Shown: positions 21,954-25,260 of the stretch, in pieces
Numbering within the stretch: position 1 is the first letter of the stretch
How the letters are laid out: each line of letters starts with the position of its first letter
Assembly: GCA_016930185.1 (NCBI GenBank)
Contig: JAFGHK010000008.1
Coordinates: 1-53,345 of the forward strand
Direction: 5' to 3'
From: Dehalococcoidales bacterium
GTDB taxonomy: Bacteria; Chloroflexota; Dehalococcoidia; Dehalococcoidales; RBG-16-60-22
Length of the DNA: 53,345 bases
Notes under the pieces: generated by a model
The model's input: only the letters and a program-made list of their open reading frames with translations
What the model was told of the DNA's origin: nothing
Databases searched by the model: none
Position numbers and translations under genes: made by a program

Positions 21954-21968
21954 CGCCGGTTTTTCAGC

Positions 21969-22108
21969 TACGATTCGTTTTGTAAAAAGGCACTTTATAA
22001 AATTTTTTATTTCAAAGCTAAAGAGGGTGTCTTTTCAGGATTTTTAGCTACGATTCGTTCCGTTAAATTTTCAGGTGTTTTTGATGGTCCAGATACGATT
22101 CGTTCCGT
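21969..22108. repeat. Short repeat cluster (core TACGATTCGTTCCGT)
   Basis: The core occurs at 22049-22063 and 22094-22108, exactly 45 bases apart, and a shorter copy (TACGATTCGTT) lies at 21969-21979, 80 bases before. The two full copies encode the TERIV repeats of the small protein on the minus strand. The third is beyond its stop codon and in another frame. Confidence 0.8.
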
Positions 22109-22447
22109 GAAAAACGATTGATTTTGCTGTATCTTTTTGAACGCAGCCCGGATAAAGGATTTGAAAAGGGCATGGTCTTTTTTGCTTAAACTGGAATTAG
22201 AAAGATACCATTTAGAGAGTATTTTAGAGGCTTCCATGAGAACGCGGCGGCTATCCGGGGCAGACTTGAGAGCGGAGGCAAGCTTGATGCGCAGGGCAAT
22301 AAGCGCGGGTGCCTCACCGCCCCGGTTGAGAATATTGGCGAGCTCGTAAAGCTGGTCAACAGACAGGCGGGAAGAATACAAGCCGTGCTTGCGGGCGTTC
22401 TGGTTGCCGGGCTGACCGCCCCTTCGACGTTTTGGTTTACGTTCCAT
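22007..22447 (-). CDS. Small basic protein with GGQPGNQNARKHG motif and C-terminal ERIV repeats
   Basis: 146 residues from ATG 22447; an earlier start would add an unconvincing hydrophobic stretch. No ribosome binding site is obvious. The N-terminus, KPKRRRGGQPGNQNARKHG, is a basic motif seen at the front of many small phage- or mobile-element-associated proteins, and a helical middle follows. The tail contains two 15-residue-spaced copies of TERIV, encoded by a DNA repeat that continues past the stop. I do not recognise a function; DNA binding is plausible from the basic N-terminus. It lies between normal housekeeping genes and an AT-rich methyltransferase gene, in what looks like an acquired island. 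Confidence 0.55.
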   Translation of the reverse strand: MERKPKRRRGGQPGNQNARKHGLYSSRLSVDQLYELANILNRGGEAPALIALRIKLASALKSAPDSRRVLMEASKILSKWYLSNSSLSKKDHALFKSFIRAAFKKIQQNQSFFTERIVSGPSKTPENLTERIVAKNPEKTPSLALK

Positions 22448-22696
22448 ACTTGATATTAGCACGGGTGTTCTGGCGGGTAAAGGGGATTTTGTCGTGGGTT
22501 TGGGGGGTAATAACCAAGTTACAAGAAACAAGATACAAACAAAAATCAAATTTCAAAGGCCAAATTTCAAAGATTGGGAGTTTTTTGTTTGGGGGAGGGG
22601 TGGTGTATAATGCAGGAAAGAAAATCCCCCTTAATCCCCCTTTTTCAAAGTGGGAAACTGGAAAGGGAGTGCTTTGTTTGGGGGAGGGGGGTGGGA
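22448..22696. repeat. Non-coding stretch with degenerate palindromic/MITE-like repeats
   Basis: No gene is visible. A 25-base block occurs twice (22576-22600 and 22665-22689) with two mismatches, 89 bases apart, and ends in GTTTGGGGGAGGGG. Between the copies is AAAATCCCCCTTAATCCCCC (22621-22640), the kind of C-run that with a facing G-run makes short dispersed palindromic elements in many genomes. Before them lies an A-rich, CAAATTTCAAA-like stretch (about 22517-22570). It looks like decayed repeat debris at the edge of an insertion. Confidence 0.5.
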
Positions 22697-25165
22697 TTAT
22701 AATAAATCCAATTGTTCTGGCGATTTCTTTTTCTTAGTTGATAATATACCTGCTATATCACTAAGTTGTTTTTTTTGGTTTTTCAAAGTGTTTATGTTGT
22801 TTTGTAAGGAATCATAATAAAGTATTTGCCATTTATCATGTTCAAACCATTGACCAAACATTGGTGATTTTAGTTTCTTAGACAGTTGATTGGCACGTTC
22901 ATCCGGTAAAACCATATATTTATTTGTATGATAAGGTATAGATGATACGCGTCTAAGAGCTTCTGTCATTGCAGTAGTATTTTCTACTTCAAATACTGTA
23001 TCAATATTCCCGTCCTTATACCATAAAAGGTCAATATTTATCGTATCATCTAATTGGTCTTTACTTAATCCTGAAATCATCAACTTTTTAGGTTTACAGA
23101 AATCTGCAAGGGGGGTAGTTACGCCTGCTGCACCTTTTAAGACTGATGATTGCTCTTTAAGTCCGACCCATATATTAAAACCTAAACTTTTGCCGATATC
23201 AGCTAACCAGCTGATAATTTGTGCGTGTTGAGTGGCACGATGGGTAACGAGTGGTTTAAGTTTCCAATACCCTCCAGATTCCTTCTTGGCATATTCTTTT
23301 AGTATATCCATAAGGCTAAGACTATCAGAAGTTAAAGAGTTCGGGAATTCAATACTTACTGCTTCCCAAAGCTGGGTGAAAGTCACCTTATACTCACTCA
23401 TTAATTTACGCAAGACTGTTTGCTCTACGCGTTCTGATAATGGGATTTCAAAATGTGGAATAATTGATGTGTCTTTAAACCACCAAAGCTCACCTTCTAC
23501 ATCGCCTATAGCTCCAGGGACTAAGGTAAATTCTTTACCGATATGATTTTTCAACACTGTCTTTACATCTAGACCTGTATGAAGGGCTAAGAAATAACCA
23601 TGTTTTGCTAGCACAGGATCAATATAATTGATAATTATAGTATAAGGGGTTTCTTCTCCTCTTTCAGCAAGCAATTGCTTCGTTGTCTCAACAACAATGT
23701 TCTCGAATCTGGTTTCATCAATTTCTTTAGGACTGACAGCCTCTTTACCGACTAGAGGCTTATGAAAACGTAAATAGAAGTCTCCATTCGCTGAACCGAA
23801 TGGCTGAAGTAGCGACTTAGCAGATGGCCTTGCAAGTTCCTGCCAATGTATCTTCTCAAAATCAAAACCAGCAAAATTACCAGCCCTGATAGTGGAATTT
23901 CTCACTCTAGTAGCAGGGTTATGGAAGGTTACAGTCAGGTAGTGGTCATCACGAAGGACATCATACATTTCCTTAAAGGCGGTAGACAGCATACGATAAT
24001 AAACATCAAAATCCTTACCCTGTCGCTCATTATGTATGACCTCATTTCCCAAACTCTCAATATACCCTTTGGAATTCCCAAACCATGCTGTCCATAAAAA
24101 CAATAATTCCCCATATTGTATTGAACTATCATATGGAGGGTCAGTAAAAATATAGTCAATCATTTTTTTAGGTATTTCTTTCATAAAATCCAATGAATTA
24201 GCTGTTATAATTAAGATATTAGCTGTACCGTTCAATAATTGATTTATATTTTTAGCAATACGTACATCTTTTAGTTCATTGTTAGATTGTTTTTTGGCTT
24301 TTAATAGACCTTGATGACCAATTATAGAACTGTAAAATTTGTTCCAAACATTTTGCTCCATGTGAAGTCCTGAAGGATACCAATAACTGTGTTGAGTCCA
24401 CGCGGAACTAAAGGGTGTAAAATGCCCTCCTTCTGAGATAGGACTCATATGTGTGCAGAGATGAACCATAGAAGTAAAAGCCATCTTAAGCATGAATCTC
24501 AAGTCTGAATCAGGCTCTTTTTCTATGGCATCTCGCAACATAGCTAATGCCAACAAATTACGATGGGTAAACAGTTGGTCTAAAGATTCATACTTTTCCT
24601 TTTTCATAAATGGTTTACCGTCATTGTAATATAGTGCTTGTTTTGGATAAGGCAAAGTAATTTCAGTTTTTTCTATTTTCGCCAACCAGCTTTTATCAGA
24701 CGAAAGTAAATTACAACCTTTTTCTTGTCTATCTCCACAATGTGGACATTTATACCGTATATCATGGGGGTTTTTACCATCCCATACCATGCATTCGAAT
24801 TCTATTTTTTTATGACATTCCCTACATTCAGTCTGATATAGTTCAAGGATTTCTTTTTTAACTCTTTTTTCAACTCTTTCATAAGCTTTGAGTAATTTTA
24901 ATAGACTAATCGGGGTTATAGTAGCCAACAGGATATTATTTGCAGTAAGTGATAAGTCAATGGTAATAACCCTGCGACCTCTACGCAAAGCCTCTATTGC
25001 CGTTACACCGCTTCCACTAAATGGGTCTAGTATGATGCCATCTTTAGGACAATATGTTTCTATAAACTGCCCAACAACGTTCCATGTTTTTCGTGCCCAA
25101 TACTTGTGCCAATTATACATTGGAGTATGAGCTTCGGCTGGTAAATTACTTTGAATGTGTTTCAT
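22697..25165 (-). CDS. Fused DNA methyltransferase with zinc ribbon and C-terminal PD-(D/E)XK-like domain
   Basis: 822 residues. The SAM-binding motif DPFSGSG (47-53) follows YNWHKYWARKTW. A zinc ribbon is inserted at C114/C117 and C140/C143, and the catalytic DPPY (342-345) is followed by DSSIQYGELLFLW. DPPY marks an amino methyltransferase (N6-adenine or N4-cytosine). After a winged-helix-like stretch (about 570-640), the C-terminus carries D712, E726 and E728 in IDLLWYKDGNIDTVFEVENT, the D...ExE pattern of restriction-type nucleases. The protein may thus be a single-chain restriction-modification enzyme, or a methylase with a decayed nuclease. Its DNA is clearly more AT-rich than its neighbours, indicating transfer. 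A bidirectional terminator separates it from the pyrophosphatase gene. Target sequence is unknown. Confidence 0.82.
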   Translation of the reverse strand: MKHIQSNLPAEAHTPMYNWHKYWARKTWNVVGQFIETYCPKDGIILDPFSGSGVTAIEALRRGRRVITIDLSLTANNILLATITPISLLKLLKAYERVEKRVKKEILELYQTECRECHKKIEFECMVWDGKNPHDIRYKCPHCGDRQEKGCNLLSSDKSWLAKIEKTEITLPYPKQALYYNDGKPFMKKEKYESLDQLFTHRNLLALAMLRDAIEKEPDSDLRFMLKMAFTSMVHLCTHMSPISEGGHFTPFSSAWTQHSYWYPSGLHMEQNVWNKFYSSIIGHQGLLKAKKQSNNELKDVRIAKNINQLLNGTANILIITANSLDFMKEIPKKMIDYIFTDPPYDSSIQYGELLFLWTAWFGNSKGYIESLGNEVIHNERQGKDFDVYYRMLSTAFKEMYDVLRDDHYLTVTFHNPATRVRNSTIRAGNFAGFDFEKIHWQELARPSAKSLLQPFGSANGDFYLRFHKPLVGKEAVSPKEIDETRFENIVVETTKQLLAERGEETPYTIIINYIDPVLAKHGYFLALHTGLDVKTVLKNHIGKEFTLVPGAIGDVEGELWWFKDTSIIPHFEIPLSERVEQTVLRKLMSEYKVTFTQLWEAVSIEFPNSLTSDSLSLMDILKEYAKKESGGYWKLKPLVTHRATQHAQIISWLADIGKSLGFNIWVGLKEQSSVLKGAAGVTTPLADFCKPKKLMISGLSKDQLDDTINIDLLWYKDGNIDTVFEVENTTAMTEALRRVSSIPYHTNKYMVLPDERANQLSKKLKSPMFGQWFEHDKWQILYYDSLQNNINTLKNQKKQLSDIAGILSTKKKKSPEQLDLL

Positions 25166-25222
25166 TTATGACCTATTTTACCATAATAATTAAAACAATT
25201 TGATAAGAGCAAACAATAAGGA

Positions 25223-25252
25223 AAAGGGGCGGGGTTTTATTCCCGCCCCTTT
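25223..25252 (-). terminator. Rho-independent terminator after hppA
   Basis: An 11-bp perfect stem, AAAGGGGCGGG paired with CCCGCCCCTTT, encloses an 8-base loop. On the minus strand, 8 bases beyond the hppA stop, the stem runs into TTTTCCTT; the plus strand also has a T-rich tail. Confidence 0.85.
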
Positions 25253-25260
25253 CTTTTAAT

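Follow-up and report, generated by a model that had tools for sequence, protein, structure and literature searches.

A predicted BrxXI-type DNA methyltransferase with a C-terminal restriction-type nuclease domain at a variable site in a Dehalococcoidales bacterium

The DNA analysed here (the window, a whole stretch of 53,345 nucleotides from a Dehalococcoidales bacterium) encodes an 822-aa protein in a minus-strand ORF with an ATG start and no internal stops. Upstream of this gene lies an H+-pyrophosphatase gene; downstream are a 180-aa ORF and then a convergent MBL-fold hydrolase gene. Other neighbours are ribF, prfA and prmC, with FtsK and TRCF farther away. None of the neighbours checked is an S, R, ATPase or helicase partner, nor is any a BrxC/DUF499 ATPase, helicase or PglZ gene. 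The gene is AT-rich (GC 0.36, GC3 0.29), as a first-pass annotation made from the sequence alone had stated; the neighbouring genes measured have higher values (GC 0.49-0.57, GC3 0.50-0.69), with the exception of the 180-aa ORF (0.47 and 0.46). Every motif quoted in that annotation lies at its given residue in the translation. The features of the locus are as follows.

22697..25165, minus strand: whole gene, predicted methyltransferase-nuclease fusion (ORF, 822 aa; full-length homologues)
25007..25108, minus strand: motif X-like KYWARK and motif I DPFSGSG (SAM binding), residues 20-53
24266..24916, minus strand: insert between motifs I and IV, presumed target-recognition domain, residues ~84-300 (alignment, model, BrxXI description)
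24737..24826, minus strand: four-cysteine zinc ribbon, residues 114-143 (invariant; 53-54 of 55 Chloroflexota relatives)
24131..24142, minus strand: motif IV DPPY (N6-adenine type), residues 342-345
23258..23719, minus strand: helical/winged-helix DNA-binding-like linker including PLSERVEQ...FPNSLTSD, residues 483-636 (alignment, model)
22796..23254, minus strand: predicted PD-(D/E)XK-type nuclease domain, residues 638-790 (REase_II match, models, alignment)
23030..23032, minus strand: D712, first presumed catalytic acid (invariant in 24 aligned relatives; 54 of 55 Chloroflexota)
22982..22990, minus strand: E726-x-E728, second presumed catalytic pair, ExE replacing ExK (alignment)
22700..22714, minus strand: QLDLL, residues 818-822, putative beta-sliding-clamp-binding tail (consensus QL[S/D]LF)
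25222..25253, no strand: bidirectional terminator-like hairpin (strong) between the pyrophosphatase gene and the window gene
21954..25260, no strand: variable site between the conserved MBL hydrolase and H+-pyrophosphatase genes (relatives G008, G005, G011 and G006)

The gene has been horizontally acquired into this variable site, in agreement with the foreign origin first proposed for it, because it is absent from relatives in the family, the site is empty in G008 and the GC3 is 0.29. The nuclease domain occurs in 1 of 31 genomes of the family, that of the window, and is absent from the 30 others. The full-length gene was found in none of 100 relatives, which gave partial, methylase-type matches only. 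The pyrophosphatase-MBL junction measures 114 bp in G008 and carries other cargo in G005, G011 and G006. The 180-aa ORF (22007-22549) occupies the same variable site and could be placed in no family, its weak match being to a phage terminase small subunit (E-value: 0.03). An imperfect 36-bp G-rich direct repeat (81%) is found at 22576-22611 and 22665-22700, just beyond the 3' end of the window gene, and a repeat of ~30 bp, TACGATTCGTT, is present nearby in three copies (21958-22112).

The first half of the window protein is predicted to be a BrxXI/PglXI-type N6-adenine methyltransferase. DPFSGSG occupies residues 47-53, and the DPPY form of motif IV is of the N6-adenine type. The Pfam family N6_N4_Mtase matches the protein, with the C-terminal part of the profile coming first, and the top match in the defence library is PglXI (E-value: 3.6e-37). 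BrxXI (PglXI) of type 3 BREX has a target-recognition insert of ~250 residues with a four-cysteine zinc finger between core strands 2 and 3 and HTH-like domains after the core, a layout common to related BR-system methylases (PMC12839542). The window protein has an N6-methyltransferase core with such a four-cysteine insert (C114, C117, C140 and C143) between motifs I and IV. The gap of 290 residues before DPPY and the zinc ribbon within it, at first regarded as unusual, are ordinary for BrxXI-type methylases and can be considered family features because BrxXI and the BR-system methylases share this layout. The linker that follows gives weak Stork_head winged-helix matches in relatives. Foldseek with the full-length protein returned one spermidine synthase fold and otherwise only matches of methyltransferase type.

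Residues ~638-790 are predicted, from sequence and models, to form a divergent PD-(D/E)XK-type domain. This region is matched by PDLC03534 (REase_II), a PADLOC profile of type II restriction enzymes (E-value: 1.9e-8); the profile also matches 16 of the 24 aligned relatives and plasmid-encoded relatives of 420-440 aa (E-values as low as 2.4e-14). The C-terminal domain matches nothing in Pfam, NCBIfam or, by sequence, PDB, and Pfam searches with 24 members gave no recurring family for it. AlphaFold models built from six or seven sequences recover the core order a-b-b-b-a-b, which is the PD-(D/E)XK core, in two cases (helices 638-644 and 647-660; strands 664-667, 713-717 and 720-727; helix 733-740; strand 748-753). 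Confidence in this region is about 70-90 by pLDDT (domain pLDDT 80, pTM 0.78); D712 comes before strand 2 and E726-x-E728 ends strand 3. Foldseek searches with the nuclease domain gave no match with an E-value <0.01 among solved structures and viral models. The non-significant matches do contain proteins of the expected kind: XisH, Card1, MUS81-EME1 and EcoT38I appear alongside unrelated folds (solved structures), and a restriction endonuclease, Mrr and MmcB appear among others (viral models).

The first-pass annotation had described a single chain carrying a methylase and, C-terminally, a restriction-type nuclease, and this description is borne out by the motifs, the PDLC03534 match and the models. 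Neither of the two outcomes named there as refuting it was observed: the predicted C-terminal fold is the PD-(D/E)XK core, and the presumed catalytic acids are conserved among homologues, D712, E726 and E728 being kept down to 24% identity. In every member seen, E or D stands in place of the lysine of (D/E)xK, with D and the first E conserved, and nuclease activity is therefore not assured. BamHI is a known active enzyme with an ExE site.

The window protein closes with QLDLL, in which the last place is taken by L rather than F. The consensus for beta-clamp binding is QL[S/D]LF (PMC3919608), and a pentapeptide of this type is thus present in a tail predicted to be disordered (pLDDT below 50), behind a linker that aligns poorly. 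Other members of the family end in QLVLI, QLTLV, QLALF, QLRMF, QLPLF and similar sequences. The motif is found in strict form in 14 and in loose form in 19 of 21 members, compared with 1 and 5 of 321 background ORFs, the 21 tails being related sequences and not independent trials; it persists where the linker fails to align. The window protein is possibly tethered to the clamp through QLDLL. A methylase of the same family on a viral contig (L045:793-2670), which has no nuclease domain, also ends in QLTLF.

A scan of a genome collection recovered five homologues with 48-55% identity to the window protein, four of them complete and one (L013) cut by a contig end. They come from MAGs of distant lineages, labelled Roizmanbacteria, Puniceispirillum, KSB1, Bacteroidetes and one further bacterium. 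Scans of viral contigs recovered one full-length relative (L043, 37% identity), the contig of which also carries a phage terminase. The window protein, the five homologues and L043 share D712, E726, E728 and all four zinc cysteines without exception, and so these motifs are not due to chance. The methylase motifs are intact in 7/7 members of this architecture outside the Chloroflexota branch described below. The homologues are not found in obvious defence islands, a clustering that the first-pass annotation had proposed to check: two lie amid housekeeping genes (L016, between lysS and a MacB/FtsX-type permease gene; L014, between pgsA-like and pgpA genes), one interrupts fabD-fabG (L015, between a fabD-like and a short-chain dehydrogenase gene) and only one (L013) lies beside a defence candidate, downstream of PDC-S02. 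This candidate (L013:17-1060), identified by PADLOC, encodes a NucS_C/YhcG-like nuclease protein and is immediately upstream of a helix-hairpin-helix (HhH) gene and the methylase-nuclease gene.

Stand-alone genes of this kind, encoding a RadC N-terminal HhH domain of ~100 aa (UPF0758_N), directly precede three of the five outside homologues, either within 20 bp or overlapping (L013:1061-1381, L015:7650-7949 and L017:5937-6227). The HhH protein is possibly a DNA-binding partner of the outside homologues; it was rejected as a partner of the window enzyme, as no such gene precedes the window gene.

Each half of the protein also has relatives of its own. Relatives of the methylase half only (L018:2263-7582 and L019:4218-9377) are found on small plasmids, divergent from DUF2357 genes; that of Kurthia (L018) lies beside AAA ATPase and DUF2357 genes and that of Thiospirochaeta beside a DUF2357 gene. 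This arrangement resembles a McrBC-type system equipped with a methylase of its own. The nuclease half alone has relatives on plasmids of Sphingomonas and Caballeronia, where they lie in copper-resistance regions, and in Paraburkholderia, where other metal-transport genes are nearby. These proteins of 420-440 aa (L020:4263-5576, L021:4236-5495 and L022:4236-5495) have the same C-terminal domain, and two are annotated as type II restriction endonucleases. No DNA methylase is annotated adjacent to any of the three.

A search of the phylum showed that the C-terminal part recurs in Chloroflexota proteins of 900-1000 aa. In a second Chloroflexota family (f78), 57 of the 61 genomes carry a single match each. 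Among 55 such sequences (40 fetched for the test and 15 earlier, a few being from other families), no intact methylase motif IV is found, D being replaced by Q in 42, and most have D-L-x-G-R-G-G in place of motif I. Conservation of the zinc cysteines extends to 53-54 of these sequences, that of D712 to 54, E728 to 53, E726 to 51, H647 to 54 and R757 to 55, and the acidic triad is retained in 52. Ranked by conservation among 780 columns, D712 is 16th, E728 40th and E726 78th. As motif IV is lost and the nuclease acids are kept, the nuclease-type site is under selection in the absence of methylation. A relaxed form of the tail motif is found at most 25 residues from the end in 54 of the 55 sequences (the background ORF counts above refer to a stricter window). 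In a tree of the methylase domain, the dead-methylase sequences group together on one side of a branch (100/100), a topology compatible with a single origin of the fusion and with more than one. The near-universal presence of a relative with a dead methylase and a retained nuclease half may point to a function other than ordinary restriction alone. Replacement of mismatch repair by this core homologue was considered and rejected: of 16 Chloroflexota genomes carrying the homologue, 15 have a MutS_V domain (a count that does not distinguish MutS from MutS2), and no NucS_C match exceeded the cut-off in the Chloroflexota genomes searched.

The window protein shares features with several known systems. 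It resembles BrxXI/PglXI of type 3 BREX and the BR-system DUF1156 methyltransferases in its core, motif order, zinc-finger insert and HTH-like segment after the core. Unlike these systems, its gene has no BREX or DUF499 partners among the neighbours checked, and unlike their methylases, the protein has a C-terminal nuclease domain and a clamp-type tail and gives no Pfam DUF1156 match. Type IIG enzymes such as BpuSI and MmeI likewise combine modification and restriction-type domains on one chain, but with an N-terminal nuclease, a gamma-class methylase and a C-terminal target-recognition domain (PMC4081073). The window protein has motif I at residue 47, the presumed target-recognition domain between motifs I and IV, and the nuclease last (638-790); because its methylase is of the BrxXI type and not a gamma-class IIG core, the initial description of a type IIG enzyme with reversed domain order is wrong as a statement of membership. 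The PDLC03534-type proteins annotated as type II restriction endonucleases on Sphingomonas and Caballeronia plasmids have a homologous C-terminal domain (D...FEVEH) but an unrelated N-terminal part, with no methylase, zinc ribbon or QLxLF tail. NucS/EndoMS, the site of which is of the ExK type, also combines a C-terminal nuclease domain with a C-terminal clamp motif, but lacks a methylase and has no detected sequence relationship to the window protein. No description of the methylase-nuclease architecture was found in the open-access literature, subscription papers and REBASE lying outside the search.

The proposed model for the window protein, which starts from the observed architecture, conservation, acquisition and tail motif, is as follows. 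A target site on DNA would be recognised by the insert. The methylase would mark host copies of this site (m6A) during replication, with tethering to the beta clamp helping. Incoming DNA, being unmarked, would be cut by the C-terminal domain, and one protein would thus cover both halves of a restriction-modification system. We infer with about even confidence that the window protein is a solitary one-chain restriction-modification enzyme of this kind, possibly clamp-tethered. This reading is favoured by the intact motifs, the type II restriction enzyme homology, the conserved D/ExE residues, the lack of partner genes among the neighbours checked, the acquired state of the gene, the AAA and DUF2357 genes beside relatives of the methylase half and the tail motif; the ExE/ExD site, the non-significant fold matches and the homologues' settings outside defence islands count against it. 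Simple self-protecting restriction also does not explain the Chloroflexota branch, in which the methylase is dead and the nuclease site is kept. A rival reading is replication-coupled DNA surveillance, in which the clamp tail would bring the nuclease to new DNA and abnormal or wrongly modified DNA would be cut. The methylase fold would then serve chiefly to read DNA; it would still be catalytic in the window protein but dead in Chloroflexota. NucS/EndoMS offers a parallel, as it has a clamp motif at its C-terminus and its cleavage is stimulated by the clamp (PMC8228993), and a near-universal single-copy gene (57 of 61 genomes) with no intact motif IV but with its nuclease acids (52 of 55) and relaxed tail motif (54 of 55) is consistent with such a role. 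However, the window gene is accessory and foreign and its product keeps a full methylase, the MutS-type ATPase in 15 of 16 genomes leaves no evident gap in mismatch repair, and clamp binding is itself putative, so that surveillance seems rather doubtful as an explanation of the window protein.

It is unlikely that the protein is an orphan adenine methyltransferase in which the PD-(D/E)XK-type domain serves as a non-cutting DNA-binding or sensing module. The ExE sequence where ExK is usual and the weak Foldseek matches would fit this explanation, and BREX-related proteins often contain REase domains that are inactive (PMC12839542). Even in proteins with a decayed methylase, however, the acids rank among the better-conserved positions, in contrast to the inactive REase of BrxHII, which has lost its motif (PMC12839542). 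Methylation- or modification-dependent (type IV-like) restriction, in which the methylase mark would be required for cutting rather than forbid it, is very improbable. Related methylases do adjoin McrBC-like AAA and DUF2357 pairs on plasmids, and relatives of the nuclease domain occur with no DNA methylase domain in the same protein, but no modification-binding domain was recognised and the idea is pure inference.

If the nuclease is active, the window protein would represent a compact restriction-modification layout that differs from type IIG, as well as a BREX type 3 methylase used on its own. The clamp-type tail suggests restriction or repair coupled to replication, and the core Chloroflexota branch provides a direct test of the role of a restriction-type nuclease once its methylase is gone. 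A tentative and somewhat speculative view of the whole is a family of clamp-tethered methylase-nucleases, the mobile members of which would carry out one-chain restriction-modification at the replication fork. The Chloroflexota branch would have been domesticated, its methylase becoming a dead DNA reader and its nuclease and clamp tag a near-universal surveillance enzyme. In another Chloroflexota genome, a related methylase ORF (L053:5344-8481) apparently ends in a dihydroorotate dehydrogenase Fe-S domain, which is possibly a fusion or an oddity of assembly or ORF calling. In several genomes the core Chloroflexota homologue has a TPR-repeat gene upstream of it (L060:9849-10817, L064:628-1464 and L065:2220-3224), and the two genes may be functionally linked.
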